DNA from: a virus
DNA: 31,859 nucleotides
Direction: 5' to 3' (one strand)
Virus record (IMG/VR): IMGVR_UViG_3300031851_000101
Coordinates: 1 to 31,859 of that record
Both the position numbers and the translations under genes were made by a program. Below are positions 4,441 to 31,859 of this stretch, piece after piece (the stretch's first letter is position 1; every line of letters starts with the position of its first letter). Under the pieces are notes generated by a model. It worked only from the letters and a program-made list of their open reading frames with translations, was not told the DNA's origin and made no database searches.

Positions 4441-7400
4441 TTAAGGTAGACATGTCACACAATCTACATATGTAGCATCTAGACTGCAAGGCGTTACATC
4501 CGCAGCTGTAGCTGAACAGTTATCTATTATAGTTACGCATTTAGAAGTTGCACTTCTCCAGTCATCAACAGTTCCGGGAGACCAATCAGGTCCATTATTT
4601 GTAAGTTCAACAACAGTACCTATAGCAATTGTACCACAACCATGATCTGTTATAAAAACAAAGTATGTTTCACTCTTGCTGCAGCTAGATACTTCATAAG
4701 TATTTGTTACAGGAATTGTTGATGCAGGATATGTATTATTGCATCCTTTTACAGATCTGGTTAAGTTTTCTTTAAACTTATCATTTGTACCATCTTCTAT
4801 TGAATCTAGTTCTGCGGAGCTTTTTTCTTGATCTAATAATGCAAGAGCTCCTCTACTGTCTCCTTTATATAACTGAGGCATTGTAGCACCTCCTGGGATA
4901 GTTGCTGCCGTATAAGGCATAGCTGGAGCTAATCCGTCTAACATAAAAGATGTAATATCAACAGCAGTTTGAATACCATACTTAGAAGAAGGTATTAATT
5001 CTGCAGTATATGCCGCCAACATTTGTAAAATAGTAGCTGCATCTGCTCCACCAGAATTATGAATAGTTAATGGGAATAATACAGTTGTTAAGCCTAAAGG
5101 AAATTGATTTATATTAATACCATTTGCTATACCCCACGTACTGGTAGGAGCAACTGGAGTACCTGTTGTACCTGTTGTCATATCTATTAAGGCAGCCGCA
5201 TCTTCTTTATACTCAGGTGTTGGTTGAGTTGAAAAACCAGCGCCTAATGTATTTGCGTGATATTCTGTATCAGATTGATTTGAAAATATTATAGCATATG
5301 CTGCACTTTTAAATACACCTGCTCCACCACTCCAAGATGTAGGAAGAACCTCCAATCCTTGCCATGGTAAAGAAGCAGATTGAGTCCAGCTAGAACCATT
5401 ATCTACAATTGCTTTATGATATCCTAGCCATTTTTCATCATCAGTAGGTATAAAGTAAATATTACCAGCATATCCAAATTCTGAAATCCAGTACGTTCTT
5501 AGTTCAGCAAGACCTTGTTTAATCTTAGCACCTTCAGCATCTGTATATCCGTTAGTATTTATAAATGCATAAACATCTTGGTCTGTATAAGAAAGTTTTA
5601 CATTACAATTTACTAATGCAACTTGAACTGTTATTACAGCTACTTCACAACCTCCGGAACCTGCAATAGTAGGTTGAAGTTGAATCTGGAATGTATCAGC
5701 ATAATCATTGCTTCCTGGAGCTACTGTAGTATATGTAAACTGATTCTCGGTAGTAGGGCTTTGTGTAACATTACCCAAAACTGGACTACTAAGAACAGTC
5801 ATACTTGGTTCACCGCTACCTAAAACATAAGGTAAGTTGATTACCACACTATCTCCATTATTACCGCATAATACTTGAATTGATTCTGGTAATATATATG
5901 AAGGACATGCACAACATTCAACAACACTTCTTACAGACTGTGTTGTATTATCCCATCCTGCATATATATATCTAGTTATAGTACCCACAACTCTTTTACC
6001 AACATAAAACCAATAACTATCAGAATTGCCGCCAAATACAAAATAGCTGTTAGGACCGCATTCTAATATTTGTCTAGCAACTTCCTGACCAGCAGGACAA
6101 GCAGTAGACATAGATGTTGACAAACACTCTTCAGGACTTTGGGTTGTACTCCAAACTTGAGTTGCAAAATCATATCTTAAAATAGTTGGCACACTTGTTA
6201 TTGGACCAGTACATGTTTGATCTACTTTTATATATACAGAGCCTGAAGTTGCACCTGTAGATATAGTTCTTAAACCATCCGAACCAGAAGTAGGAGCACC
6301 ATAGGTTATACCATCAGTACTAAAAGATATCTCAGCACTAACCGGAGAAGCATCTTCATATGCAACTGTTACTGCAACATCCCCAGCAACCCCAAGATAA
6401 TCCATTGTAGGACTAGTTAATGTTGCTGATTTACAAGCAGGACCAGCAGGACCTAAACTTTCAAGCTTTATGATTTCATCTATTGGGTCATACCAGTATC
6501 TACTATAAACACTGCCAACCGCATATTTTCCTAAATAAACATCCGTAGATTCAACAGCATCTGATGTAAATACATTTGTAAGTACATCAGCACAAGTTTC
6601 TCCTGGAATAGTAACTGCAATACTTGGGCAAAGTTTTGGTATGCTATTAACAATTACACTAACCTGAACATCATATGTTTGTCCAGGAGCAGCTCCTGAA
6701 AATATATAGTTAATTGATGATGGAGGATTTGTTATAGTAGTTGTCCCAAGTACAACTCCTGTACTTTGAGAGGTTGCGGTTATTTCATATGTAACTGTAG
6801 CACCTAAGTTATTTGTAAAGCCTACAGTTATTAAACTAGATCCAGGTGTTACTACAATATTTTGAGGACAAGGTGCACTCATTGGAGCTATTAATAGTTG
6901 TCTATCTTTACATTGAGAAGTACCATCTGTAATACAAAAGTTAACTACAATACTTAAGGATTGAAATCTATTTAATGTAGTAACATCAACATTAACTCCG
7001 CTTGGTGAATTAATTAAGTTTGAAACTACAATATTTTGACTTACACTGCTTCCATCTGCATCTGTAATTGTAACTACTGTAGATCCTCCGCAATCTGAAA
7101 AACCAGAAGGTATTGTAGAACCTTGAAAATTTAAATTTATTAAATCAAAAACACCATTTCCAGTTGTGTCTATACCATTCCATGCAAAAATAAAGTCTAC
7201 ACCATCACAACCTGAATCACAACAGTTTTCTTGTATATCTGATACAGCTGAATATAGATCGCAAATAGCAATCCATTGATTAATATTAGACTCAGCTAAT
7301 GTTCCCGGATTAGCAACCCATCCTGTAAGTCCGCTAAATGGCTGGCGAGTAGTTAGACTCTCTTGACTACCAGTTATACATTGAGCACCTATAGCAGCAT

Positions 7401-13959: not shown

Positions 13960-15579
13960 TTAGAATGAACCTCCCGTTACTGGGTTTCTCATTACAATCT
14001 TTAACACTTTAGTTGGATCTTTAACCCAAATAGCAGGCATACATTGAGTCATATAAACTCTATATCCATTGAACTGTCCAGTAGAAGCAAACCCTTGAGT
14101 TCGTCCCATGTAGTCCATTGTACCATTTTGGTAGAACCACTTAAGTTGATTATCCCATGATAATTTCAACAAGTGAATGTTATCATTTCCATTGTCTGTT
14201 ACATCAAAAATGATAAAGCTAAATGAGCTAAGAGGACGACCATCAATTAATGGGTTCTCAATATCATTAGTATGTAAGTTATCAAATGCTGGGTTAAGTA
14301 CAAACTTAACATTAGCAAGGAAAGGAATAGTAAAGCTTGTGTAAGCAAAACCAAAGTCTAAGTCCATTCCTGATCCAGTTACTGCACCAATATCAGAAGC
14401 ATTTTGAACTAATCCAGAACCATATACTTCATCAGCAATAGCTTTGTTGATTAATTGCATTCCTCCAATACCTGTTTGTACAATAAGCTGACGCTGTGGG
14501 TCTGGCCCTTTAAACTCAACTTTTCCTTGATAGAAGTTGTAAAGTTCAGATTTAAACATGTCAAGTGTAAATGCAGACTTATTGTATACTCTCTTAAATG
14601 AGTTATCCAACTGTGACCAAAGACCAACTGATAATCTAATATCATCTGGACCGTCTTGTCTGATTCTACCACCTTTACCCCACATAAGGTAAGTTTCAAT
14701 ATCATTTGCAATCTTAGAAAGATGCGCTGCTTCCATATTAGTTACGAAAGTTCTAGATAGTTGACCACTTTCAAATGCATCTCTAGCACCTGATTTACCC
14801 ATGCTGCTTACTAATTCTTCAATAGAAGAAACAGAAGGATTATTAGGATCTTGGTTAAAGTTTCTCCAGATCTCAGTTACAGGAACTGTACCATCTGCAT
14901 TCATTCCTCCTTTGATCATAAGATCAGCTCTAGAAGAGATTGAATAATGAACGTGTGCTTCTGCTCCTCCTACAAAGTTGTAGAATTCACGGAAACCAGA
15001 ACCCATCTCCATATCAGAGAATCTTTCACCATACTCACCTCTAGCAGAACCTTTTCTAAAGTATTTAGTTCCAGCTTCTAAGTAAAGATCGGCATTTAAA
15101 GATGCTGCATTGTTATTGTTTACTAATTGAACAGTGTAAATAAAACCATCACCTGCAGGTATAATATCTTCTGCTGTAATGTACATTTCAAGTCCATTAT
15201 ACTTGTCATAAGTAATAATGTCACCATGTCCAAAAGATCTTTTAGAAAGTTTAATTCTAAAAGTTGTACCATCTGCACCAAGCTCGTTTTCTGCTTCAAT
15301 GTTAGAAACGATAAAAGGTAAATCTTGGGCAATTGGTGTTTGCCATTTGTACTCACCACGCGCATTGTCTACCATAATTGTATTCTTTCCACCAAAGGAA
15401 GCCATTTGATATAAAGGCATTTCTACCTTTTGGGTCATAGCCCAAAGATCAACAGGTCCCATATCCATAGGCTCAGAAGAACCAAGCATATTAGATAAGT
15501 GATAAGAATCAATATGAGAGCTAGCCTTGTAGCTTGTGTCTCTAAGGAAAATTCCATTGTTTAATACTGGAGTTGCCAT
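13960..15579 (-). CDS. Major capsid protein
   Basis: This 539-aa protein lies directly after the predicted scaffold and ahead of the strongest terminator in the window. It begins MATPVLNNGIFLRDTSYKAS. Blocks include WQTPIAQDLPFIVSN, the G-rich GSGFREFYNFVGGAEAHVHY and a C-terminal MDYMGRTQGFASTGQFNGYR. The length and mixed alpha/beta composition suit an HK97-fold capsid protein of the Crassvirales size class. There is no obvious delta domain, which agrees with a separate scaffold gene. Gene order portal, fibres, scaffold, capsid supports the call more than any single motif. The message begins after a 45-nt AT-rich spacer with no clear terminator from the scaffold gene, so they may share a transcript. 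Confidence 0.82.
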   Translation of the reverse strand: MATPVLNNGIFLRDTSYKASSHIDSYHLSNMLGSSEPMDMGPVDLWAMTQKVEMPLYQMASFGGKNTIMVDNARGEYKWQTPIAQDLPFIVSNIEAENELGADGTTFRIKLSKRSFGHGDIITYDKYNGLEMYITAEDIIPAGDGFIYTVQLVNNNNAASLNADLYLEAGTKYFRKGSARGEYGERFSDMEMGSGFREFYNFVGGAEAHVHYSISSRADLMIKGGMNADGTVPVTEIWRNFNQDPNNPSVSSIEELVSSMGKSGARDAFESGQLSRTFVTNMEAAHLSKIANDIETYLMWGKGGRIRQDGPDDIRLSVGLWSQLDNSFKRVYNKSAFTLDMFKSELYNFYQGKVEFKGPDPQRQLIVQTGIGGMQLINKAIADEVYGSGLVQNASDIGAVTGSGMDLDFGFAYTSFTIPFLANVKFVLNPAFDNLHTNDIENPLIDGRPLSSFSFIIFDVTDNGNDNIHLLKLSWDNQLKWFYQNGTMDYMGRTQGFASTGQFNGYRVYMTQCMPAIWVKDPTKVLKIVMRNPVTGGSF

Positions 15580-15624: not shown

Positions 15625-16914
15625 TTACATCCGTTTAAAAAAGTTATTAGGTCTGCTAATTTTCTTTCTAGCTGGTTTTGTTTTCTTAGAGTCTTCGGCT
15701 GTTTGCTGAACCCCCATTGAATTAGCATTTCTATTAGCTTGTTCTGTTTTAAGTTTTCTAACAGTTTTTTCTACACTTTTTTGAGCTCCCTTTTCCATGA
15801 TCTTAGACTTATATCCATCTGGATCAGCTAATAACCAAAGAGCCTCTGTAATTAAACCATAGTTTGGCTCCTGGAATTGGTATTTCTCTAACAAGTGACC
15901 TAATAAGTTTGTATTTTTTCCATTTACAGAAGGATATGCTGGCTGGACTAGACCGTTATATAATAAAGATTGAGTTCTTTTATCAACCTTTAAATCATTT
16001 ACTTTACCTTCTTTTAATGTTTCATAAACATTATGCATATACTGTTTTGATGCTTGTTCTTGCTGCTTTTGTTTTAATTGCTGTTCTTGCAATTTTTGAG
16101 CAACAACTTTTTCTTGCATCTTATCTAATTTTGGTTTAAACTTGGCAGCTTGTTGTTCAAGTTTACCTAAGTCTTTCCAAATTTCAATTTCTTCATTTAT
16201 CTCTTCTTGTGTTCCATATCCAGTAGTAGATAAATATTGCATTATAATATTTTCTTGTCCAGATTCAGTTGAAGAATCCAAGTCAAAAGTTTCTTCAGCT
16301 TGAGCTAAAGTTTTAAATAAACTTTTTAAATCAGTCCCACCATCTGCTACATACTGCGCAGCAACTTTTAGTTCATTTGGTAAAGCCTCAAAAAATTGCT
16401 TAGGTGTTTCTCTCCTAACTTGATTTGCTCTTTCTTCTAGATTAGCCTCAATTAGATCTTGAAGATCTTTTGGTGAGTATTCTGATATTGGTTTATCATC
16501 TTCAAATGCAAAAAACTTTTCATCTTTTATAAGTTTATCAAAAACATCTTCAACTCCGTTTATAGGCTTTCTACCTCTAGTTTCTACTTGTTCTTGCTCA
16601 ACTCCTTCAGAATCATCATCTGTATCATCGGCTATATCAGAAAGGATTTCAGCACCTTCTGCTTTAATCCCTTCTTCAGTTTTTTTGGTAACTTCTTCTG
16701 GTGTAACAACATCCTCTTTATCCATCCAGTCTTCTTTTTCAACTGGTTCAGTAAAGCTCATATCAGGTTTAGGATTAATAGGATCCATGATGTTAGGTTT
16801 AGCCTCTTCAGGAAGAGTTACACTATCCGCATCAGGACCCATCGGAAATACATCCTCTATATTGATATTTTCTGTTGTTACTTTAGTTTCCACTGTTTTA
16901 TTTTCTTCACTCAT
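15625..16914 (-). CDS. Capsid scaffold protein
   Basis: The first 130 of 429 residues are acidic and probably disordered (ADDTDDDSEGVEQEQVETRG). A central helical part follows (SPKDLQDLIEANLEERANQV), then a Gln/Lys-rich coiled coil at about residues 255-300 (QEKVVAQKLQEQQLKQKQQE). The tail is basic (ARKKISRPNNFFKRM). An acidic, coiled-coil, Gln-rich protein with a basic C-terminus coded just before the major capsid gene is the classic scaffold arrangement, in which the basic end binds the capsid shell. No protease motif is visible. A promoter-like motif lies upstream at 16946-16960. Confidence 0.75.
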   Translation of the reverse strand: MSEENKTVETKVTTENINIEDVFPMGPDADSVTLPEEAKPNIMDPINPKPDMSFTEPVEKEDWMDKEDVVTPEEVTKKTEEGIKAEGAEILSDIADDTDDDSEGVEQEQVETRGRKPINGVEDVFDKLIKDEKFFAFEDDKPISEYSPKDLQDLIEANLEERANQVRRETPKQFFEALPNELKVAAQYVADGGTDLKSLFKTLAQAEETFDLDSSTESGQENIIMQYLSTTGYGTQEEINEEIEIWKDLGKLEQQAAKFKPKLDKMQEKVVAQKLQEQQLKQKQQEQASKQYMHNVYETLKEGKVNDLKVDKRTQSLLYNGLVQPAYPSVNGKNTNLLGHLLEKYQFQEPNYGLITEALWLLADPDGYKSKIMEKGAQKSVEKTVRKLKTEQANRNANSMGVQQTAEDSKKTKPARKKISRPNNFFKRM

Positions 16915-18516: not shown

Positions 18517-19329
18517 TTAAAGTATATTCATATTTTCTAATGAAGTAATATAAATTTTAGTGCCATCTGAAGTACCTTTCATTAATGTTATATTATTTAT
18601 TACAGGTTGTAAACTATTATTAGTGTACATATTTGTGCCAGTTTGTAAAGTTACAATCTCTGCTGCTGTATTATCAATTATAAAGATATAGTCTCCTACA
18701 CCTAGGTTAGACATTGATATTGTAGTACTTCCTGTAATATCTATAGTAAACGTATTACCTGTAGAAAGATCAATTGTATCTGCAGCTCCTGCAAATGTTA
18801 AAGGTACTATAGGTGTCCATAAACTAGCTCCTGCTGGACCAATTGGACCAATAGGACCTTGTGGACCATCTAAGCCTTGTAGTGCTAAAAAAGTCCAGTT
18901 AGCTGTATCTACTGAAGGATCTGTAGCACTTGGTCCTACTGGATTTGTACATACATAACTAGATCCATCAAAGAATGCTACGTCATCAACTACATATGAA
19001 GAAGCTGCGCTCCATGTACCTGTAAAGTTTAATCCTGCTGCACCTACTGGACCTGCTGGTCCTATAGGGCCTGTTGGACCTGTTGCCCCTGGAGCACCAT
19101 CTGCTCCTGGAGGTCCTGCTGGACCTTGCGGTCCTGCGCCACCTCCACCACCACTAGAACCAATATATTCAGAAAGTTCCTTTATTCTAACTGCTTTTGA
19201 CTCAAGATCTGGAACATTATTTTTACTTATATCTTTTGCTATGTAGATAACATCATCCTCTTTTATAGCCGTTCTCTTTAAAAATAAACGTCTCTGTACT
19301 AAACCTAGTATTTCTTGTAATATCTGCAT
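18517..19329 (-). CDS. Collagen-like fibre protein with ChiC-type sugar-binding module
   Basis: This 270-aa protein has an N-terminal helical anchor (1-58). A Gly-X-Y collagen repeat follows at about residues 66-99 (GPQGPAGPPGADGAPG and on). Next comes a module with TGTWSAASSYVVDDVAFFDG and SYVCTNPVGPS (about 102-148) that matches the ChiC/CBM5_12 carbohydrate-binding pattern. A second short Gly-X-Y stretch lies at 152-168, and a beta-rich C-terminal domain completes it. The collagen parts should form a trimeric rod separating the binding domains. It lies 2 nt after the portal gene and 1 nt before the LamG gene. A head fibre or tail fibre role is inferred from this location. Confidence 0.85.
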   Translation of the reverse strand: MQILQEILGLVQRRLFLKRTAIKEDDVIYIAKDISKNNVPDLESKAVRIKELSEYIGSSGGGGGAGPQGPAGPPGADGAPGATGPTGPIGPAGPVGAAGLNFTGTWSAASSYVVDDVAFFDGSSYVCTNPVGPSATDPSVDTANWTFLALQGLDGPQGPIGPIGPAGASLWTPIVPLTFAGAADTIDLSTGNTFTIDITGSTTISMSNLGVGDYIFIIDNTAAEIVTLQTGTNMYTNNSLQPVINNITLMKGTSDGTKIYITSLENMNIL

Positions 19330-19331
19330 TA

Positions 19332-22091
19332 TTATTTATTTTTCTTTTTTTCTTTTTTGGATTCAACGTCATATTTATTTTTATTCTCCCTTGCTATTTC
19401 CAAATTAGTTTGAGCAACTTGTCTCTGTGTAGATAGTTTATCTCTATCTAAATTCAATTTCTGTCTACCTGCTTCCTGCTTCATCACATTCTCTTCTCTT
19501 TTCATATCCATTTGCTCTCTATATCTGCTAGTTTCTTTTATATCATCCATAGCATCTTTAAAATCAGATACTTCATTTTGATTAATATCTTGACTAGCCC
19601 CGTATCCAGCAGATCTTATTTCTGCAACGGTGATATCTTTTTGTCTATTCTTTTCTGCTTCTTCAGCTTGAGCCTGCAATCTCATTTGTTCTTGTTGTTG
19701 TTGAGCTTGAATCTGTTGCTCTTGCATTTGCTGCTGTTGTTGCATTTCTTGCTGTCTTTGCTGTTGTGACTTTGTTTCAGTATCCTTAAGTATATCTGAA
19801 ACTTCAGCTATTGATTCTGCTTTAAGTATGTTACCTAAATCATAAATACTAGCACCAGTAGTATTATTTTGAATAGCCATTTGCTTCAGTTGTTCTAATA
19901 TTTGTCTATGATTTGTTTTAGTTGTTGCAAATACATTAAATTCTCTAAGTAATAAATCTGTACCATTTATTACAAAATTCACCTTTTCAGATTCTGTTGT
20001 AATATAACTAAGTCTAACACTAGGATTAGTACTATGATAGAATTGAGCTAAATCAGTTCTCATTTGATGAACTCTTGGCATTAACTGATCAGAATGCTGA
20101 TTAAAATATATCTCTGTTTGAGCATATGACTGATTCATTGCATTAACAACTCCTGTTGCTGTTTCATTGCCCATAGGTGAACCCATTCTTTGAGGATTTA
20201 CACCAATAGCATCAAATGCCTGTTGTTTAAAGTAATTAGCTAATTGTATTCTAGACATTAATCTACTTGTCTGCTCTAGATTAAGTGTTTGATAATGATT
20301 AAAGTTTGTTGCATTTTCCGTATTAGTAATAGAAGTATCTAAAGGAAGCATACTAAAATCCTTCATTGCCGTATATGCTTTTGCATAATTATGTTTACCC
20401 CAATCTTCTCCCATTGAATGTCTAGGCAGTGCATTTTGATCAAACATAATTACAGTACCTAGCTCATCTACAAGTATATCAGCTATCTGGTTATTTACCA
20501 TGTTATAGCCAACTTGATATGCTTTCATTAAATCTACTAATGATGTAGATTTTGTATTTCTATCTGAAAATACCCTACCTTCCATAGGTAATTTGCATCC
20601 ATATAAATTATTGTCACCTTTAAATTGAAATGGTATTCTTCCAGGCTTAGGTCTATTTATTCCAAGATATATAGGATTAATATTGTCTCCCATATTAGAT
20701 CTCCAAAATGCTGGTAAATTAGGTCCAATTTTTACACCACCGCATACCTCGTTAATCCAAATCCAATCTATGTGCTCACCCTCTAATAGATTTTCTTTAC
20801 TTTTTTGTTTAAAGATTGTAGTATCATAAATAGGTTTTTCAGTAACCTTATAGTTTTCATCTATAATTTCTTGAATTATTTCACCATCTTTTTTAATTCT
20901 AGTCAGGTGTCCAAGTTTACGCTGTGTCTTCCAATATGTTGTGGTAACTCTCATTAATTCAGCTTCACCCCATATTGAAACATCATCACCTTCATTTAAT
21001 ATTTGACTTATAATATCTCCGCCTTTAGCTGGATCATCTGACCAGTTACTCACATACTGTCTGTATGCTAAACCTGGCATTTGAGTATTCCATTCATGAG
21101 ATCTAGAAGGATCATAGTAAGATCCATCATTCTGCATACCATTTACCTGATATAACGCTGATCTTGCGGGATAAATTTCCTGAAGTGAATGAAGCTGCTT
21201 CTCAGTCATTAAATAACCATATTTATCAATAACATCTGAAACAGTCATAAGATCAATTTTTCCGCCATAGTTTGCATCTGAAATATATCTTACATCTGGA
21301 GACTTCTGATAAAATGTAAGTACTGGATTCCAAACCTCAATATCATAATCATCTTCCATCATTTTAAAATGCCAGAATTCTCTATCACAAACAAGTGAAT
21401 CACGAAAAGCTCTTTCTTCAAGCTCTTGCATTTTGAATCTTTCTTCATCAACATTTCCCTGGTGGGTTGCCCACTCTTCAATCATGCTTCTATAATCCAT
21501 AGAAAAGAAGTCTTCTATCTCAGGAAGACTTTTAAGATTTTCAGGAGACATTTGTTGCTGCGCTTCTTCTGATTGAGGATCCATGCCCATTTCAATCATT
21601 TTAGCTAATAACTTAGCCTCAGCATCAGCAAGAAGATTTTCTTCAACCATAGCCCTTTTCTGCTCAAGCATCTCATTATAAGATGTGTTGTCCACTGCTC
21701 TATATTGGACTTTAGAATATCTTTTTGAAAACTCTCCTGTTAGTACATTAACTACATTAGGGATTATTGGGTAAAACTTTAGTTCTAATGCCGAATTATC
21801 TTCTTTAGTTAATACATCCATTAGATCCTTATAATCATTATCTTCTTCAATAATGTAGTCTGTTTTATCAATAATGCCTTTTGCCAGTTTATAATTCTTT
21901 AGTAATTTTCTAGCATTATGCCTTAAGAATTCAATACCTTGTAGCTCAAGCCAATCAATATTCCAAGCATACCAGTCATCATTTTTCTTTTTCGCAGGTA
22001 GAAATTGTATGGGTTGAGTAAGACTAGATGAAGTTGGATAGCCCTCTCCTTTAGCTCCATTTTTTAGTTGTAGTGCATTAAATACCTTCAT
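19332..22091 (-). CDS. Portal protein
   Basis: The gene follows the large terminase by 1 nt, the canonical place for a portal. The 919-aa protein is large even for a portal. The first 620 residues are a mixed alpha/beta body with YAWNIDWLELQGIEFLRHNA near the start and RQYVSNWSDDP further on. A segment with PQRMGSPMGNETATGVVNAM (about 640-660) is followed by helices, as in the stem/crown of portals. From about residue 775 to the end is a Gln-rich, highly charged coiled coil (QQQRQQEMQQQQQMQEQQIQ and on) ending KKEKKKNK, probably disordered or reaching inside the head. Family membership is inferred from size, context and composition. Confidence 0.8.
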   Translation of the reverse strand: MKVFNALQLKNGAKGEGYPTSSSLTQPIQFLPAKKKNDDWYAWNIDWLELQGIEFLRHNARKLLKNYKLAKGIIDKTDYIIEEDNDYKDLMDVLTKEDNSALELKFYPIIPNVVNVLTGEFSKRYSKVQYRAVDNTSYNEMLEQKRAMVEENLLADAEAKLLAKMIEMGMDPQSEEAQQQMSPENLKSLPEIEDFFSMDYRSMIEEWATHQGNVDEERFKMQELEERAFRDSLVCDREFWHFKMMEDDYDIEVWNPVLTFYQKSPDVRYISDANYGGKIDLMTVSDVIDKYGYLMTEKQLHSLQEIYPARSALYQVNGMQNDGSYYDPSRSHEWNTQMPGLAYRQYVSNWSDDPAKGGDIISQILNEGDDVSIWGEAELMRVTTTYWKTQRKLGHLTRIKKDGEIIQEIIDENYKVTEKPIYDTTIFKQKSKENLLEGEHIDWIWINEVCGGVKIGPNLPAFWRSNMGDNINPIYLGINRPKPGRIPFQFKGDNNLYGCKLPMEGRVFSDRNTKSTSLVDLMKAYQVGYNMVNNQIADILVDELGTVIMFDQNALPRHSMGEDWGKHNYAKAYTAMKDFSMLPLDTSITNTENATNFNHYQTLNLEQTSRLMSRIQLANYFKQQAFDAIGVNPQRMGSPMGNETATGVVNAMNQSYAQTEIYFNQHSDQLMPRVHQMRTDLAQFYHSTNPSVRLSYITTESEKVNFVINGTDLLLREFNVFATTKTNHRQILEQLKQMAIQNNTTGASIYDLGNILKAESIAEVSDILKDTETKSQQQRQQEMQQQQQMQEQQIQAQQQQEQMRLQAQAEEAEKNRQKDITVAEIRSAGYGASQDINQNEVSDFKDAMDDIKETSRYREQMDMKREENVMKQEAGRQKLNLDRDKLSTQRQVAQTNLEIARENKNKYDVESKKEKKKNK

Positions 22092-22092
22092 G

Positions 22093-24267
22093 TTATTTTA
22101 AATTTTTAAATCCAGATCTTCGTTTTCTACCAGACATAGATTTTTTACTCCCCATATTTCTAAAGGGACTGTACTTTAATTTATACATTTTTTTTGACTT
22201 ATCCAAAGAAGAAGATTCTTCTTTTACCTTTAAGTATCCTCTGTTTGCCTCTTGCACTTTAGCAAATGCAACTAAAGCGGAAAAAGCTACAAGCCTATCA
22301 ACATTTAATCCAGGCTGATATTGCTTCATTTCCGTTAAAAGCATGGGATCAGGTATTCTTTCAATCCCTAAAGTTGAACTTATTATATTACCATCATCAT
22401 CGGTTTCATTATTTATTTCCTCTCTTAAATATTCAATAGCATAAGATATAAGATGTGATTTAAATAATGTACCTGTATTTTTCCAACCATATTCCTGATA
22501 TACATTCTTATTAGATCCTAAGTCTTTTAAAAAAACCATTTGACTTTTGGGAACTAGGTATTTCTGTTTCTTTTTAGAAACCATGTAATTTATAAAGTGA
22601 CTAATATTATTTTCAACCACCGTCCATGCATTATACCATTCGATTATTAAAAGAAGTTGCTCATGCGTTTTGTTTATATCATCATATCTTCCAGACCAAG
22701 CACATACAATCTTATCTCTTTCTGTAAACGTTTCAGGTCCATCCGGAGTTTCTCTTGTAACTTCAATTGCATTTTTCATTACAAATATAGAACACAAAGA
22801 ATCAGATGTTGTAGTTTTACCTTCTGATACAGGGTCAATAGAAGCATAATATGCACCAAAAGGAGGATTTTTTATTGGTCTTTCATATACTACCGGAACA
22901 CCCCTTTTGTCTGACATCTTTTTATCTACCGGAAATGTTGATATAGGTATTTTTGTAGATCTTTTTGCAACAATTCCACTTTGATCTCTACTAAGTTCTA
23001 TATGCTCATAGAAATAATCTTTATCTTCAATTTTTTTAAGTTGCTTAGATATAATACCTTGAGGAAATATTGATTCTTTTCTATAAGCAAATCCTTCTGC
23101 AATATTAGTTGGTTTCTGAGATATTCTTAATTGGTATTGTTCAGGATTTAGTTTATTTTTCCAATCTTCTCTTTCTATCATTATAGCTTCTAAAGCTTCT
23201 TTTACTTTAGAATTACCAAACTGATCTATGTATGGTGGCATTGACCATTGTTCGGGAATAAATAGTCCGGATAAACCTATAGCACCATCCTTGTCTAAAA
23301 GGTTTGTTTCAACCGCATATATATCATTATTTGTAGGATTAAGGATCATATCTTTAAGTGGATTACATTGATCTAAATCACCTACAGATCCAGCAGCAAT
23401 AAACTGACCTGTAGTTATCATACCAGAAGACATTGCAGGACGCAGGTACTCATATGTATCTCCCATTTTTGGAGCAATACCCGCCTCCTCATGAAAGAAG
23501 TAAGTTGTCGGCCCCCCTACTCCAGTTGTTGCATTCTTTTCAAATGATGCACCTTGTATTTTAGATTTTAAACCTTTACTTGTTTTTCTATTACCTACTC
23601 TAACTTCAATCTGTTGCTGCCAAAGTAAAACCTTTTCCGGGTTACTTGGTCTATACCAAGCCGTATGCTCATTAAGAAAATCTTTGTATTCCTCTAAGAA
23701 CTTCCAAGATCCTTTATCATTTATATAATCCTTAAGACTTGCACCAATTTTACATACAGATCCTTCCTCAAACCAATATGTATTTATGAGCTTACCCATA
23801 TGAAAATAAGAAGATGCTATCTGACGTTTCTTAAATATGGCAGCATGCTTATTACTTAATTCTGCTATTAGCTCATATAAAGCCATATGATATTGGGCAT
23901 CCCTCACTTTGGCAAATCCATATGCCTTTTCTTCTTTATCATATATAGGTAAAAAGTTTAACCACATATAATAATCTCTAGTTAAATACCAAATCTTATC
24001 ATTATTCTGATATATTACACCAAGCCTACACTTTGCTTTTTCAGAATCCCAATATTTTCTAAAATCTTTACCTCCATTGGGAGCATTTAGGTATATACCC
24101 TCCTTATTAAATTTTCTAGCTTCCTGATTAAATATTTTAGATGTTTCATCAAATTCATATTTACCAGGTTCCTTAAATAAAGGCAATAAAAAATCTAACC
24201 ACTCTTGATCAGTCTCAAAAGTGGTTGTTGTCCAATCTCCATTTAAATATGTTGGAACTACTCTCAC
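22093..24267 (-). CDS. terL: Terminase large subunit (ATPase and nuclease)
   Basis: This 724-aa protein drives DNA packaging. A degenerate Walker A-like segment KKRQIASSYF lies at about 147-155. Walker B is TTYFFHEEAG at 254-263, with the acidic pair E260/E261, and motif III is TTGQFIAAGSVG at 285-296. The C-terminal nuclease has D478 (YYASIDPVSEGKTTTSD), E552 (TVVENN) and a late aspartate in NVDRLVAFSALVAF. The block PTNIAEGFAYRKESIFPQ (387-404) links the two domains, as in other large terminases. The C-terminal tail is basic. The start overlaps the GroES-like gene by 4 nt, and the portal gene follows by 1 nt. Confidence 0.92.
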   Translation of the reverse strand: MRVVPTYLNGDWTTTTFETDQEWLDFLLPLFKEPGKYEFDETSKIFNQEARKFNKEGIYLNAPNGGKDFRKYWDSEKAKCRLGVIYQNNDKIWYLTRDYYMWLNFLPIYDKEEKAYGFAKVRDAQYHMALYELIAELSNKHAAIFKKRQIASSYFHMGKLINTYWFEEGSVCKIGASLKDYINDKGSWKFLEEYKDFLNEHTAWYRPSNPEKVLLWQQQIEVRVGNRKTSKGLKSKIQGASFEKNATTGVGGPTTYFFHEEAGIAPKMGDTYEYLRPAMSSGMITTGQFIAAGSVGDLDQCNPLKDMILNPTNNDIYAVETNLLDKDGAIGLSGLFIPEQWSMPPYIDQFGNSKVKEALEAIMIEREDWKNKLNPEQYQLRISQKPTNIAEGFAYRKESIFPQGIISKQLKKIEDKDYFYEHIELSRDQSGIVAKRSTKIPISTFPVDKKMSDKRGVPVVYERPIKNPPFGAYYASIDPVSEGKTTTSDSLCSIFVMKNAIEVTRETPDGPETFTERDKIVCAWSGRYDDINKTHEQLLLIIEWYNAWTVVENNISHFINYMVSKKKQKYLVPKSQMVFLKDLGSNKNVYQEYGWKNTGTLFKSHLISYAIEYLREEINNETDDDGNIISSTLGIERIPDPMLLTEMKQYQPGLNVDRLVAFSALVAFAKVQEANRGYLKVKEESSSLDKSKKMYKLKYSPFRNMGSKKSMSGRKRRSGFKNLK

Positions 24268-29354: not shown

Positions 29355-29412
29355 CTTTATATAGTAATATACGTATTTCTGTCCAGCCCCCCAACGTTTC
29401 CTTTCAAAAATA
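29355..29412 (-). promoter_or_regulatory. Candidate promoter region for the leftward unit
   Basis: TATTTTTG on the minus strand (29405-29412) matches TAnnTTTG. Further downstream, GTATATTACTATATAAAG (29355-29372) resembles the promoter-like motif found before other late genes. Either could start the leftward transcript; no clear -33 is visible for the first. The whole intergenic stretch is 29346-29541. Confidence 0.4.
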
Positions 29413-29487
29413 TACCCCCTCCCTAATTTAAAAAATGTGTGTGTTGCATGTGCATAGGGTCCTAGCATTCTGCTCCCCGCCTAATTT

Positions 29488-29520
29488 TTGAGTTGGGGGG
29501 ACCCCCGTTAAATAACTCAA
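29488..29520. other. Hairpin in the divergent switch region
   Basis: TTGAGTT (29488-29494) pairs perfectly with AACTCAA (29514-29520). Inside, GGGG pairs with CCCC, leaving a GGAC loop and an unpaired GTTAAAT on one side. The hairpin ends 21 nt before the start of the first plus-strand gene. It may be a leader structure or DNA operator; direction cannot be decided. Confidence 0.5.
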
Positions 29521-29541: not shown

Positions 29542-29814
29542 ATGGAAAGACAATTAAACTGGGGTGACTCCCAGCCAATTGCCGACTTCTTACGTGATCT
29601 AGGCGCATCAAAGATGCAGATTATCCGTTCACCAAAAACGGGTAAGCGTTTCTTTGCTGTCCCAGGCACGTCCGTGACTGGCGCTATCAGTGAAAAGGTT
29701 GAAACCTTAACACTGGAGCTTACAGTCACAGAGGTCACAAGCGAAAACGGTGAAACGTTTTTACTTGTTTGTAAGCCATCTGATAACAACGTGCTCGGTG
29801 AGCTATCGTTGTAA
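29542..29814 (+). CDS. Unknown 90-aa protein, first rightward gene
   Basis: The product MERQLNWGDSQPIADFLRDL continues with GASKMQIIRSPKTGKRFFAV, PGTSVTGAIS and a beta-like C-terminal half ending ETFLLVCKPSDNNVLGELSL. It looks like a compact alpha-beta protein without membrane segment. I do not recognise a family. The base composition is noticeably less AT-rich than the late genes (28 of 60 bases are G or C in 29581-29640), which suggests a different origin or RNA-level constraints. Its last 44 bases are also one arm and loop of a long hairpin (29771-29824), and a strong terminator follows 18 nt after the stop, so it appears to be a single-gene transcript. No clear plus-strand promoter is visible. 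Confidence 0.65.
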   Translation: MERQLNWGDSQPIADFLRDLGASKMQIIRSPKTGKRFFAVPGTSVTGAISEKVETLTLELTVTEVTSENGETFLLVCKPSDNNVLGELSL

Positions 29815-29824
29815 TCAGGCTTAC
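29771..29824 (+). ncRNA. Long hairpin overlapping the end of the 90-aa gene
   Basis: Nested perfect arms are GTAAGC/GCTTAC (29771-29776 with 29819-29824), CTGAT/ATCAG (29780-29784 with 29814-29818), ACAAC/GTTGT (29786-29790 with 29808-29812) and GCTC/GAGC around a GGT loop. That is 20 pairs in 54 nt, spanning the stop codon. It could regulate mRNA stability or readthrough to the terminator that follows. Confidence 0.6.
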
Positions 29825-29831
29825 AGGCCAC

Positions 29832-29874
29832 CCAATACTGCGCTGAAGGAAGTAGGCGGAAGTATTGGTTTTTT
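29832..29874 (+). terminator. Rho-independent terminator after the 90-aa gene
   Basis: CCAATACT (29832-29839) pairs perfectly with AGTATTGG (29861-29868), followed by T6 (29869-29874). The 21-nt loop is purine-rich. The T-run fixes the transcript direction as rightward. Confidence 0.8.
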
Positions 29875-29877
29875 CTA

Positions 29878-29934
29878 CACTACACTGACTATAGTTACGG
29901 GGACGAGGAGCCCACGTAAAATAGCGGTGTAGTG
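29878..29934 (+). ncRNA. Structured RNA element: four-step stem
   Basis: CACTACAC (29878-29885) pairs with GTGTAGTG (29927-29934), CTAT with ATAG (29889-29892, 29921-29924), TTACG with CGTAA (29895-29899, 29915-29919) and GGG with CCC, closing an 8-nt loop ACGAGGAG. All 20 pairs are nested in 57 nt. It starts only 3 nt after the terminator T-run. 31 of 60 bases in 29881-29940 are G or C. It contains no ORF. Confidence 0.6.
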
Positions 29935-29971
29935 CACCACTTTACTGAATAATATCATTAAATCCACTCAT

Positions 29972-30009
29972 TGCAACCTATAAGCAGGTGATAGCGCTTA
30001 TACATTGCA
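29972..30009 (+). ncRNA. Structured RNA element: two-step stem
   Basis: TGCAA/TTGCA (29972-29976 with 30005-30009) and TATAAGC/GCTTATA (29979-29985 with 29996-30002) stack with a symmetric 2x2 internal loop and a 10-nt apical loop. It lies in the 573-nt gene-free stretch 29815-30387. Confidence 0.5.
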
Positions 30010-30096
30010 TAACGGATTATAGTTTTAACTTAATACCACAAGGACTATGTATATAGGATCTAACGGCTGTGTAACTCCATTGGAATGGGTTCGCAA

Positions 30097-30190
30097 TGAG
30101 AACGCCTAAAGTTCTCAGCTATTGGGTTATCCGTTCAATGAAACCAGTGCCACTGCAGAGGCGACAGCAAACCTGGTTGAGAACGGATAA
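30097..30190 (+). ncRNA. Structured RNA element: hairpin plus long stem
   Basis: TGAGAAC/GTTCTCA (30097-30103 with 30111-30117) makes a 7-bp hairpin. Nine bases later TTATCCGTTC (30127-30136) pairs perfectly with GAACGGATAA (30181-30190), enclosing AACCAG/CTGGTT (30142-30147 with 30173-30178) and a 25-nt GC-rich interior. Half of the bases in 30121-30180 are G or C, well above the coding DNA around. No ORF of useful size crosses it. Confidence 0.6.
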
Positions 30191-30241
30191 ATGCCCATGT
30201 TCGTGCTTACTTGAGCACTTAAGCCCTTAAACTTTTAAAAT

Positions 30242-30350
30242 ATTAGACAGCTACTGACTATTTGTACGCGTGTTTATTGTTTTATGGGTGACCCAAATAA
30301 ACCCTAGATTCATGGGTAGTATGAATCATAATCAATTGTTGCTGTCTAAT
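30242..30350 (+). ncRNA. Structured RNA element: three-way junction
   Basis: ATTAGACAGC (30242-30251) pairs perfectly with GCTGTCTAAT (30341-30350), 89 nt apart. Inside are two hairpins: GTTTATT/AATAAAC (30272-30278 with 30296-30302) capped by TGGG-TGA-CCCA, and GATTCAT/ATGAATC (30307-30313 with 30321-30327) with a 7-nt loop. Together they form a three-way junction. A 30-aa ORF starts 38 nt later. Confidence 0.65.
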
Positions 30351-30387
30351 TATATATATGGCTACAATCCACTCTAACACCACAACA

Positions 30388-30480
30388 ATGAAGAACATTG
30401 CACACTTATCAATTGCAATTCTTATGATGGGAGTCTCTACTATGTTTGCTTATGGCTTACATGTAGTATTATCTATCTAA
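30388..30480 (+). CDS. 30-aa single-pass membrane microprotein
   Basis: The ORF starts at the ATG at 30388-30390, after an ACAACA-type leader, and ends at TAA 30478-30480. The product begins MKNIAHLSIAILMMGVSTMF and ends AYGLHVVLSI. After a short basic N-terminus, almost the whole chain is one hydrophobic helix. It is too short for homology by eye. Phage microproteins of this kind may be lysis, superinfection or membrane-stress effectors, but none is shown here. The location between two structured elements (30242-30350 and 30506-30600) argues that it is part of a regulated small transcript. It could also be a chance ORF. Confidence 0.45.
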   Translation: MKNIAHLSIAILMMGVSTMFAYGLHVVLSI

Positions 30481-30505
30481 GAAGAGTACTTACCTATAGG
30501 TTGAA

Positions 30506-30600
30506 TGTCTTAGTACCTGGGAATAGAAAAAATCTAAGACAAATCCAAGAGTTGGGAAAAAGTTCTATGTTGGGAGAACCCAAAAGACTACAACTCTTGG
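30506..30600 (+). ncRNA. Pair of adjacent stem-loops before 30629
   Basis: TGTCTTAG/CTAAGACA (30506-30513 with 30534-30541) is an 8-bp stem. Three bases later CCAAGAGTTG/CAACTCTTGG (30545-30554 with 30591-30600) is a perfect 10-bp stem that encloses TTGGG-AGAA-CCCAA. They fill the 148-nt gap between the 30-aa and 114-aa genes. There is no T-run after them, so a processing or leader function is more likely than termination. Confidence 0.55.
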
Positions 30601-30628
30601 ACTATTAATTAACCTTAAACCACTTACT

Positions 30629-30973
30629 ATGGAAGATTATGATGAAATAAAAGCACTCTTTGGAGGAGACCTAAAGCCAAAGAAAGATCTTCTTAGAAGA
30701 TTTAAGAGAAGTTATATTGTCTCTACTTATAGTTCACATGAGTGGATTAGTACTCAAAAAGCTTTTTGTAAGTTGTTTTTGAGAATTCAGTTGCACCGTA
30801 GAGGTTACTCTGCACTAAAAGATATGTTCTACCCTTCTCGTAAGGTATCTGACTTTCTTCACAAAAGGTTCAACCTGAACACTTACAATTTCAATAGTGA
30901 TTGTTCTATTGAAAGACATCGTCCTGGTACAGGGCAGATTACCCACCACAGCCCTTGGCATGATTGTATCTAA
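30629..30973 (+). CDS. Unknown basic protein (114 aa)
   Basis: The sequence MEDYDEIKALFGGDLKPKKD leads into a basic, helical stretch LLRRFKRSYIVSTYSSHEWI and FCKLFLRIQLHRRGYSALKD. Later parts (FYPSRKVSDFLHKRFNLNTY) are also basic; the last 25 residues are low in hydrophobics and overlap inverted repeats, so the true product may vary at its C-terminus. There is no membrane segment and no recognisable domain; charge would suit nucleic-acid binding. The start follows an A-rich leader (CCACTTACT then ATG). The codon pattern is AT-rich, like the late genes and unlike the noncoding spacers on either side. Confidence 0.6.
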   Translation: MEDYDEIKALFGGDLKPKKDLLRRFKRSYIVSTYSSHEWISTQKAFCKLFLRIQLHRRGYSALKDMFYPSRKVSDFLHKRFNLNTYNFNSDCSIERHRPGTGQITHHSPWHDCI

Positions 30974-31070
30974 CCAAGGGAATAACCGTATTTTCAGTAG
31001 TGAGTTAACCGTAATGGGGAAGCTAAGCCAAGAGCTTAAGCTTCCTCAGAGATGGATGCTCACTATTTTT
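30952..31070 (+). terminator. Stem-loops after 30629-30973, second one terminator-like
   Basis: CCCTTGG/CCAAGGG (30952-30958 with 30974-30980) straddles the stop codon. Next, TAGTGAG/CTCACTA (30998-31004 with 31059-31065) encloses a long stem GGAAGCTAAGC/GCTTAAGCTTCC (31018-31028 with 31034-31045, one bulged A). T5 follows directly at 31066-31070, so this may terminate the transcript; the long enclosed structure is more elaborate than a usual terminator. Confidence 0.5.
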
Positions 31071-31091
31071 ACTTACCACTAAAACTAAAAT

Positions 31092-31346
31092 ATGACAAAA
31101 GAGTATTCGTTAAAAGATATGTTGGCATTTGCTGATCATATCAGAACTCGGTGTATAAAAGAGTCTAATCATAACTATCCTTTCCCTGATATCAAATTGG
31201 AATTTAGAATATGGTCACAGAAGTTTTATACTCCTAACAACTCAGAATTTAAACCTGAGTTAGTTAAATATGACATTGGAAACAACTTCCAAGAAGATAT
31301 GATTAATGATATGTTTGATGACGATGACATGCATCCATATGATTAA
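31092..31346 (+). CDS. Unknown small protein with acidic tail (84 aa)
   Basis: The product begins MTKEYSLKDMLAFADHIRTR and carries KLEFRIWSQKFYTPNNSEFK in the middle. The C-terminus is very acidic (MINDMFDDDDMHPYD). It is soluble, without signal peptide or known motif. The ATG follows a stretch of A (ACTAAAATATG) like other starts in the window. A terminator-like structure lies 22 nt upstream and another stem-loop 19 nt downstream, so it may be its own transcript or part of a processed one. An acidic tail could suggest interaction with a DNA-binding protein or DNA mimicry, which is a guess. Confidence 0.6.
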   Translation: MTKEYSLKDMLAFADHIRTRCIKESNHNYPFPDIKLEFRIWSQKFYTPNNSEFKPELVKYDIGNNFQEDMINDMFDDDDMHPYD

Positions 31347-31364
31347 CATTTAAATCTTCACAAA

Positions 31365-31419
31365 GATAACGGGCACATAGTCCTTGAGATTTGATCACCT
31401 CATCCACTATGTGCTTATC
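31365..31419 (+). ncRNA. Stem-loop after 31092-31346
   Basis: GATAA/TTATC (31365-31369 with 31415-31419) and GCACATAGT/ACTATGTGC (31373-31381 with 31406-31414) form a 14-bp stem with a 3-nt bulge and a 24-nt loop that can fold further. It opens a gene-free stretch that reaches the right edge. Confidence 0.55.
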
Positions 31420-31512
31420 CAATTAAACAAGTACTATATGCCTAATTGCAAGGGTACTCTAGGAAAGTTATAGTAGGTCAGTAAGTTGAAGAGTAAGGCT
31501 GACATTTTACAT

Positions 31513-31649
31513 TAACAATTGCAACGAAGAGCCAGTATGACTGGAAAATCTGCTTTAAAACGCCTCTCTGTAACGCAGGTACAACTATTTGATTTATCAA
31601 ATGACTGCCAGGTAGCATCGTTGACATTCGTGTCTTAATGCAATTGTTA
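31513..31649 (+). ncRNA. Structured RNA element: multi-branch fold
   Basis: TAACAATTGCA (31513-31523) pairs perfectly with TGCAATTGTTA (31639-31649), 115 nt apart; ACGA/TCGT (31524-31527 with 31618-31621) continues the stem inside. Enclosed hairpins are CCAG-TATGA-CTGG (31532-31544), ATTTGA-TTTA-TCAAAT (31587-31602) and GACA-TTCG-TGTC (31623-31634), the last with a TTCG tetraloop. No ORF covers it. Confidence 0.6.
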
Positions 31650-31859
31650 TTAATTAACTAGGAAGTGCCTTGCCAAGGCTAGTCCTGCAATGAGGATGAA
31701 GACAAGGGAATGGTAAACCCATCAAAGTATATCTAGACAGGCCAAAACACGTTTGAACTACAAGCAATCACTAGGAATAGGAGGTTGTCTCTTGATTGAG
31801 GGTAGGAGTGCAGTCTGGATGAATTATAATTAATGGGGCAAATGCTTACCCATAGAAAG
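31650..31859 (+). other. Gene-free right end with further small hairpins
   Basis: No ORF of more than a few codons is visible on either strand. Small stems are GCCTT-GCC-AAGGC (31668-31680), CAATCA/TGATTG (near 31766-31798) and ATGGG/CCCAT (31833-31837 with 31849-31853) with GCA/TGC inside. The segment may continue the structured noncoding region beyond the window. Confidence 0.4.

Follow-up and report, generated by a model that had tools for sequence, protein, structure and literature searches.

GOLLD and ROOL, two RNAs that form cages of many copies, occur near transfer RNA (tRNA) islands and have no known function; for GOLLD env-38, the multimeric cage has been seen by cryo-electron microscopy (PMC12286853). 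In the phage ICP1, a noncoding RNA of ~800 nucleotides (nt), located in space devoid of open reading frames (ORFs), is the most abundant phage transcript (PMC7567579). The locus considered here lies in IMGVR_UViG_3300031851_000101, a 31.9-kilobase (kb) virus fragment of 31,859 nt that was analysed whole and is called the window below. Comparison with related phages indicates that its rightward gene arm, which starts at 29542, carries an RNA island, followed in the closest relative by a divergent GOLLD, and that the elements of this island are probably real, uncatalogued RNAs and not chance hairpins. An earlier reading of the letters alone (the sequence-only reading) had placed probable undescribed structured RNAs there, in a dense field of long stems within gene-free, G+C-rich spacers at 29771-31859.

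The likeness to known GOLLD loci lies in the arrangement: in a sister contig of the window, a GOLLD-like RNA directly follows the island and a tRNA-like RNA stands behind it, as GOLLD is found near tRNA islands (PMC12286853). In contrast, the units within the window are not GOLLD, the sister RNA scores 45.7 bits where the curated model asks for 150, and a run of small exchangeable RNAs before GOLLD is not described in that literature. With ROOL the locus shares a large structured phage RNA near tRNAs, but the cmscan runs found no ROOL. The long noncoding RNA of ICP1 is similar in being ~800 nt long, noncoding and in ORF-less space, but ICP1 belongs to another phage group and the likeness is one of description. 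Phage islands of noncoding RNA that include GOLLD are already known as a kind of locus, while the small RNA families, the way they are exchanged as modules and a micro-ORF with a hairpin at its stop codon are uncatalogued as far as Rfam 15 and a shallow literature search go; the locus itself did not turn up in these shallow text searches, and large published phage structured-RNA screens may hold some of the elements as numbered candidates.

The field of long stems is borne out by counting. In the four spacers of 29815-31859, a count of maximal perfect Watson-Crick stems with spans of at most ~160 nt gave 19, 9 and 5 stems of at least 7, 8 and 9 base pairs (bp), respectively, versus 9.7±3.5, 2.3±1.6 and 0.7±0.9 in dinucleotide shuffles, and the observed numbers were reached by 0/100 shuffles. 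The longest perfect stems are, by the positions of their two arms:

29832-39/61-68
29878-85/29927-34
30127-36/30181-90
30242-51/30341-50
30506-13/34-41
30544-54/91-601
31373-81/31406-14
31513-23/31639-49

Folding of the + strand in 120-nt segments gave a mean z of -1.33 for the region, with 25% of values below -2, versus a mean of -0.37 and 9.5% of values elsewhere in the window. Energies are low for this genome at 29641-29940, 30121-30360, 30541-30660, 30961-31080 and 31261-31440, with minima of -5.1 at 29821, -3.9 at 30121 and -4.4 at 30961; folding is unusual in about half of the region but ordinary (z ~0) at 31381-31859. The stem field is real, and its strength is uneven along the region. 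The G+C counts of the sequence-only reading are exact (30/60 at 30121-30180, 31/60 at 29881-29940, 20/60 at 24061-24120) and the spacers stand at 0.39 versus 0.33 for positions 1-29000, but this enrichment, which had been taken together with nested complementarity as an RNA signature, is modest and uninformative by itself. Nor is the whole of 29771-31859 gene-free, as 29771-29814 is the end of a 90-amino-acid (aa) ORF and four further ORFs interrupt the region, with the spacers between them.

The comparisons rely largely on the sister contig IMGVR_UViG_3300021371_000016 (57 kb, called L002), which is 90-95% identical where aligned to the island. The elements under comparison are:

29832..29868, + strand: hairpin a, stem CCAATACT/AGTATTGG, after the first rightward ORF
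29878..29934, + strand: hairpin b, whose long, interrupted stem has CTACACTACA-like closing arms (z -5.1 for 29821-29940)
29972..30009, + strand: hairpin c1
30124..30196, + strand: hairpin GGG-TTATCCGTTC/GAACGGATAA-CCC, with element d nested in its loop
30203..30218, + strand: small hairpin e, GTGCTT/GAGCAC
30242..30350, + strand: element f, 10-bp closing stem TTAGACAGC/GCTGTCTAA and inner hairpins (GATTCATG/..ATGAATC)
30506..30541, + strand: element g, stem TGTCTTAG/CTAAGACA around CCTGGGAATAGAA
30544..30601, + strand: element h, an 11-bp stem TCCAAGAGTTG/CAACTCTTGGA enclosing an inner hairpin
30996..31066, + strand: element i, outer stem AGTGAG/CTCACT, inner GGAAGC/GCTTCC, apical AAGC/GCTT (z -4.4), internal loop ACCGTAATGG / CAGAGATGGATG
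31371..31416, + strand: element j, a freely varying 11-bp stem with the invariant core CCTTGAGnnTTGATCACCTCATCC and the palindrome TGATCA in its apical loop
31422..31510, + strand: cassette k, in the window and not in L002
31513..31649, + strand: element l, closed by AACAATTGCA/TGCAATTGTT, with ACGA/TCGT as second helix and GGAGCCAGnnTGACTGGAAAATCTGCTTTAAAACGCC conserved
31661..31840, + strand: element m, a highly conserved noncoding stretch of ~180 nt

Pairs predicted from the window alone were confronted with the substitutions seen in L002, either in their actual places or relocated. Seventeen of the 44 pairs touched by a substitution are still pairs (39%, versus 24% after relocation), a share that is probably a lower bound, since the pairwise alignment is wrong at the apical part of i and at the base of h, which makes the count of breaks too high; P is 0.005 on the + strand and 0.097 on the - strand. 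Judging from the aligned copies, j and l are clean cases of compensatory change. In j, the 14 pairs are 100% paired across five phages, with three pairs altered on both sides and the remaining two changes turning A-U into G-U, which pairs on the + strand only; the covariation score of j was matched by 1/500 shuffles and the signal was lost on sliding the partners. The closing stem of l becomes ACAACTACA/TGTAGTTGT in L142, where the next helix passes from CAACGA/TCGTTG to CAAGGA/TCCTTG. In L002, the apical stem of i reads GTGC/GCAC, and in h an inner TA pair is replaced by CG while two G-C pairs become G-U. For seven hand-defined stems, the arms pair at 97% of positions within a phage and at 63% between phages, a contrast that is partly built in, as some of these stems were chosen as the best local stem. 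Covariation above background is found in relatives, and the comparisons support selected + strand secondary structure for several units; folding energies lie below those of shuffles in part of the region. Both outcomes go against refuting conditions set in the sequence-only reading, and its view of the region as probable undescribed structured RNAs is supported.

Not all stems are at that level. Those at 29832-29868, 29878-29934, 29972-30009, 30203-30218 and 31422-31510 are not proven: all five hardly vary in the single relative carrying them, or are missing there. The stem of a is unchanged in L002 and so brings no covariation information; a T-run follows this hairpin in the window and not in L002, making a conserved terminator unlikely. 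Hairpin b is identical in L002, c1 shows one closing-side change of little information, and f has an identical interior with two closing pairs broken. The loop motif of g recurs, by eye, in hairpins of L007, G006 and L011 (CCTGGGAACAGAA, CGTGGAAACAGAA). Element d pairs AACCAG with CTGGTT around a loop containing ..GGCGACAGCAAA.. and resembles a hairpin of relatives, GAGTTTAACCAGCTTGGCAACAGAAATGGTTT. The folding energy of m is ordinary, and it is the conservation of this element, with a small number of consistent changes in pairs, that suggests a structured state.

The comparison with L002 also points to exchange of whole units. Most spacer sequence is unchanged between the two contigs, and three whole stretches have been gained or lost: L002 is without ~41 nt in the loop of hairpin 30124-30196 and without ~88 nt at 31422-31510 (cassette k, for which relatives were searched and none found), and it has an extra unit:

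insertion at 29953..29954: 84-nt cassette of L002, with its own 8-bp closing stem TAGCATGT/ACATGCTA

This cassette is nearly unchanged in L007 (4207-4122, - strand, E 6.8e-21). Cassettes are gained or lost whole, cut at the closing stem. Several elements recur in different company each time: j in L007, L129 and L117, m in L129, and l in L142/L161, where the middle domain is absent, as well as in a more diverged copy in L117; outside the sequences it was trained on, the only member that a covariance model of l detected was L161, itself almost a copy of L142. Depending on the phage, j sits 3' of different ORFs or, with no ORF, directly before GOLLD, and such varied neighbours argue against the control of one gene. 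Element m is 96% identical to L129 over about 170 nt in unlike surroundings. By analogy, this pattern of gain and loss resembles that of tRNA genes in phage tRNA islands. A further ~90-nt RNA, closed by GTAGTAT/ATACTAC and with an inner hairpin altered on both sides, is common to L007 (~4010-3910, - strand) and L172, where it comes after the micro-ORF.

The window stops partway through the island. In the sister contig the island extends further and leads to:

L091:16391-17167, - strand: ~780-nt RNA, a divergent GOLLD, starting 165-250 nt past the window end
L091:16307-16381, - strand: tRNA-like RNA GGCAGTACCACATARGA..TAGGTTCGAATCCTATTACTGCC, behind GOLLD

The ~780-nt RNA has about 50 homologues in IMG/VR. 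Its 3' half matches the full GOLLD model (RF02032, a 416-position 3' domain with a curated gathering score of 150 bits) over positions 1-416, at 45.7 bits and E 1.6e-10. Other matches were obtained in L007 (47.2 bits, E 5.4e-11, positions 1-416) and in L139, L133, L137, L150, L167 and L155 (68-117 bits; E 4.3e-30 over positions 1-416 for L155); the best tested relative reaches 116.9 bits, so that none of those tested attains the curated cut-off. With all scores below 150 bits, divergent GOLLD is called here on model coverage and E-value and not on the curated threshold, and standard annotation misses the tested homologues. The sequence-only reading, which mentioned GOLLD without being able to match it, came close: such an RNA lies in the sister contig just past the window end, though not among the elements within the window. 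A terminase related to that of the window is present in 26/36 GOLLD contigs, at identities from 84% down to about 25%, so that GOLLD extends over this and more distant phage lineages. The 1.5 kb before GOLLD is gene-poor across these contigs, with 51% lacking an ORF versus 30% of loci. An Algoriphagus match of the GOLLD pattern (L166) was discarded as an ordinary coding region.

The tRNA-like RNA combines acceptor and T arms with a single long hairpin that stands in for the D and anticodon arms. ARAGORN calls it an odd tRNA-His(atg) or unknown; it also occurs in four other phages (L134, L127, L014, L094). In two relatives, Pistol ribozymes lie downstream of GOLLD (L155:2050-2111, + strand, six nt past the 3' end; L133:1434-1498, + strand), and it is possible that Pistol self-cleavage releases the 3' end of GOLLD there. 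A phage-borne transfer-messenger RNA (tmRNA) gene is found at L146:10809-11188 (+ strand; RF00023, 57.3 bits, full model). Elsewhere, a ~580-nt noncoding stretch (L092:530-1130, - strand; L100:about 15660-16235, - strand) is 83% identical between G006 and G010, with stem-preserving changes by eye and no Rfam match; in G006 it directly precedes the tRNA-like RNA, the place that GOLLD takes in the sister contig. L168, from another phage, has an exact 20-nt match to this RNA at 6654-6673 (+ strand), within a stretch that seems by eye to be rich in tRNAs, but was rejected as a relative, with little in common beyond about 21 nt.

Between a-c1 and d, the island contains a unit of a different kind:

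30047..30109, + strand: 20-codon micro-ORF MYIGSNGCVTPLEWVRNENA*, recurring in at least 5 distinct phages
30097..30117, + strand: stop-codon hairpin of the micro-ORF, GAGAAC/GTTCTC

Homologues of 20 codons are found in L007, G006, L010/L011/L129 and L008, and more distant ones of 22 codons in L138 and L172; differences fall mostly on third codon positions (92, versus 59 and 58). Most homologues have a hairpin at the stop codon, each made from different sequence (L138 stands outside this comparison), and in L129 its best fold is weakly better than shuffles. The arms pair with their own partner in 25/25 cases and with those of other phages in 45/100, figures that are partly biased because the stems were hand-picked. 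Relatives have a hairpin with loop GGCAACAGAAA 3' of the micro-ORF, a variant of which is present in the window. The arm TTATCCGTTC of the hairpin at 30124..30196 has an alternative partner upstream, AACGGATTA, at about 30012. If any part of the island exerts cis-control, it is most likely this unit, the single one that resembles a cis-acting leader.

Searches for known signals gave little. Rfam, run on the window at curated cut-offs and on 2.5 kb at relaxed E-values, returned nothing convincing; the in-window elements have no Rfam match, so that 'undescribed' holds within the limits of Rfam 15. A RAGATH-25 candidate (E 0.16) was rejected, being inside the 114-aa ORF, and a match between j and the start of the micro-ORF (31375 vs 30039) was dropped because it is not kept in L002. 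No tRNA or tmRNA was matched in the window by ARAGORN or Rfam, nor did Rfam match a group I or group II intron or a known self-cleaving ribozyme there; no intrinsic terminator (a G+C-rich hairpin with a T-run) was found on the + strand of the spacers, and a promoter scan showed no excess over shuffles. Neither the island nor the giant RNA, used as DNA queries against named phages, gave a match, and antisense targets of the spacers within the window reach 12-13 nt at most, which is chance level.

The carrier is a tailed phage, whose left arm consists of 29 kb of long leftward ORFs. The ORF at 22093-24267 reads as the large terminase, and gene order and size alone make 19332-22091 the probable portal and 13960-15579 the probable major capsid gene. 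IMG/VR contains at least 599 stretches related to the terminase. Among named records, the top matches are the uncultured gut phages cr116_1, cr10_1, cr55_1 and others (~25% identity, with 86% of the protein covered), and Flavobacterium and Cellulophaga phages are matched as well. We take these gut-phage records to be crAss-like, so that the terminase would make the carrier a distant relative of the crAss-like phages. Next to the portal-like gene, 18517-19329 (- strand) encodes a 270-aa protein with collagen-like GPQGPAG repeats. Between the arms, a ~100-bp noncoding block at 29405-29515 (..GGGTCCTAGCATTCTGCTCCCCGGCTA..) is conserved in more than 10 relatives and is probably a shared promoter or leader region. 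The other ORFs of the rightward arm are:

29542-29814, + strand: 90-aa ORF, the first rightward ORF
30360-30482: ORF of 30-40 codons, between spacers
30629-30973, + strand: 114-aa ORF, function unassigned, relatives only in L002 (97%) and G006 (82%)
31092-31346, + strand: 84-aa ORF, function unassigned

Searches for related proteins yield few loci, two for the 114-aa ORF and one for the first left-arm ORF.

We consider it reasonably probable that the locus is an island of separate small + strand RNAs with stand-alone functions in trans, beside GOLLD. Units of ~40-180 nt, several of them self-closed by a stem, would lie between very small ORFs on the + strand at the start of the rightward arm, upstream of the divergent GOLLD and the tRNA-like RNA seen in the sister contig; the rightward transcript of the island would be divided, by cleavage or termination, into separate stable RNAs, which may act in trans alongside GOLLD, like the RNAs of phage tRNA islands. 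The stem excess, the covariation in j, l and i, the + strand test, the cassettes, the proximity of GOLLD and the lack of terminators all point to stand-alone RNAs, and comparison supports the structures, the strand and the gain or loss of whole units. Several observations weigh on the other side: a release route is unsupported, as known ribozymes are unmatched in the window (Rfam); several elements have one relative or none; and P for both-side change is also low on the - strand (0.003). In at least 5 phages, moreover, the micro-ORF unit has a constant position behind the first ORF, as expected of a cis element. The main alternative, possible though rather unlikely, is that the elements are cis-acting parts of early mRNAs, namely leaders, attenuators and intercistronic hairpins tuning translation or stability of the adjoining small ORFs, with which they indeed alternate. 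A very short conserved ORF, stop-codon hairpins and competing downstream stems (TTATCCGTTC pairs upstream or downstream) make a layout like that of a leader-peptide attenuator, but there is no run of a single regulatory codon, no rightward U-run terminator and no conserved regulated gene downstream. Furthermore, j, l and m are not bound to a single neighbouring gene, no rightward terminators were found, and in the sister contig ORFs of at least 60 aa are lacking over up to 1.4 kb, which exceeds the usual needs of gene control.

It is improbable that the elements are what is left of decaying tRNA genes or GOLLD 5' domains and persist only because insertions are tolerated in the region: relatives do have an island of tRNAs and GOLLD in this place, and the tRNA-like RNA of the sister contig is without normal D and anticodon arms, but remnants would retain neither the compensatory stems and invariant loops of j nor the 96% identity of m over about 170 nt in unlike surroundings. 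Least probable of all is a role of the inverted repeats as DNA between the divergent arms, be it as an origin of replication or as signals for packaging or recombination. They do adjoin the divergence point, and the block at 29405-29515 is common to many relatives, but in j it is only on the + strand that changed pairs become G-U, significance in the substitution test is likewise confined to that strand, and the conserved loops are neither repeats nor arrays of one binding site. The further idea that the small units are partners of GOLLD, that is, client or linker RNAs captured in or joined to its cage, with j dimerising through TGATCA kissing loops, is very improbable as it stands.

GOLLD and ROOL are among the largest phage RNAs. 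In the marine phage lineage described here, a divergent GOLLD appears to be preceded by 1-3 kb of structured RNA modules and a conserved micro-ORF with its stop-codon hairpin. If transcribed, the RNA modules would represent several new RNA families and provide concrete candidate partners for GOLLD.

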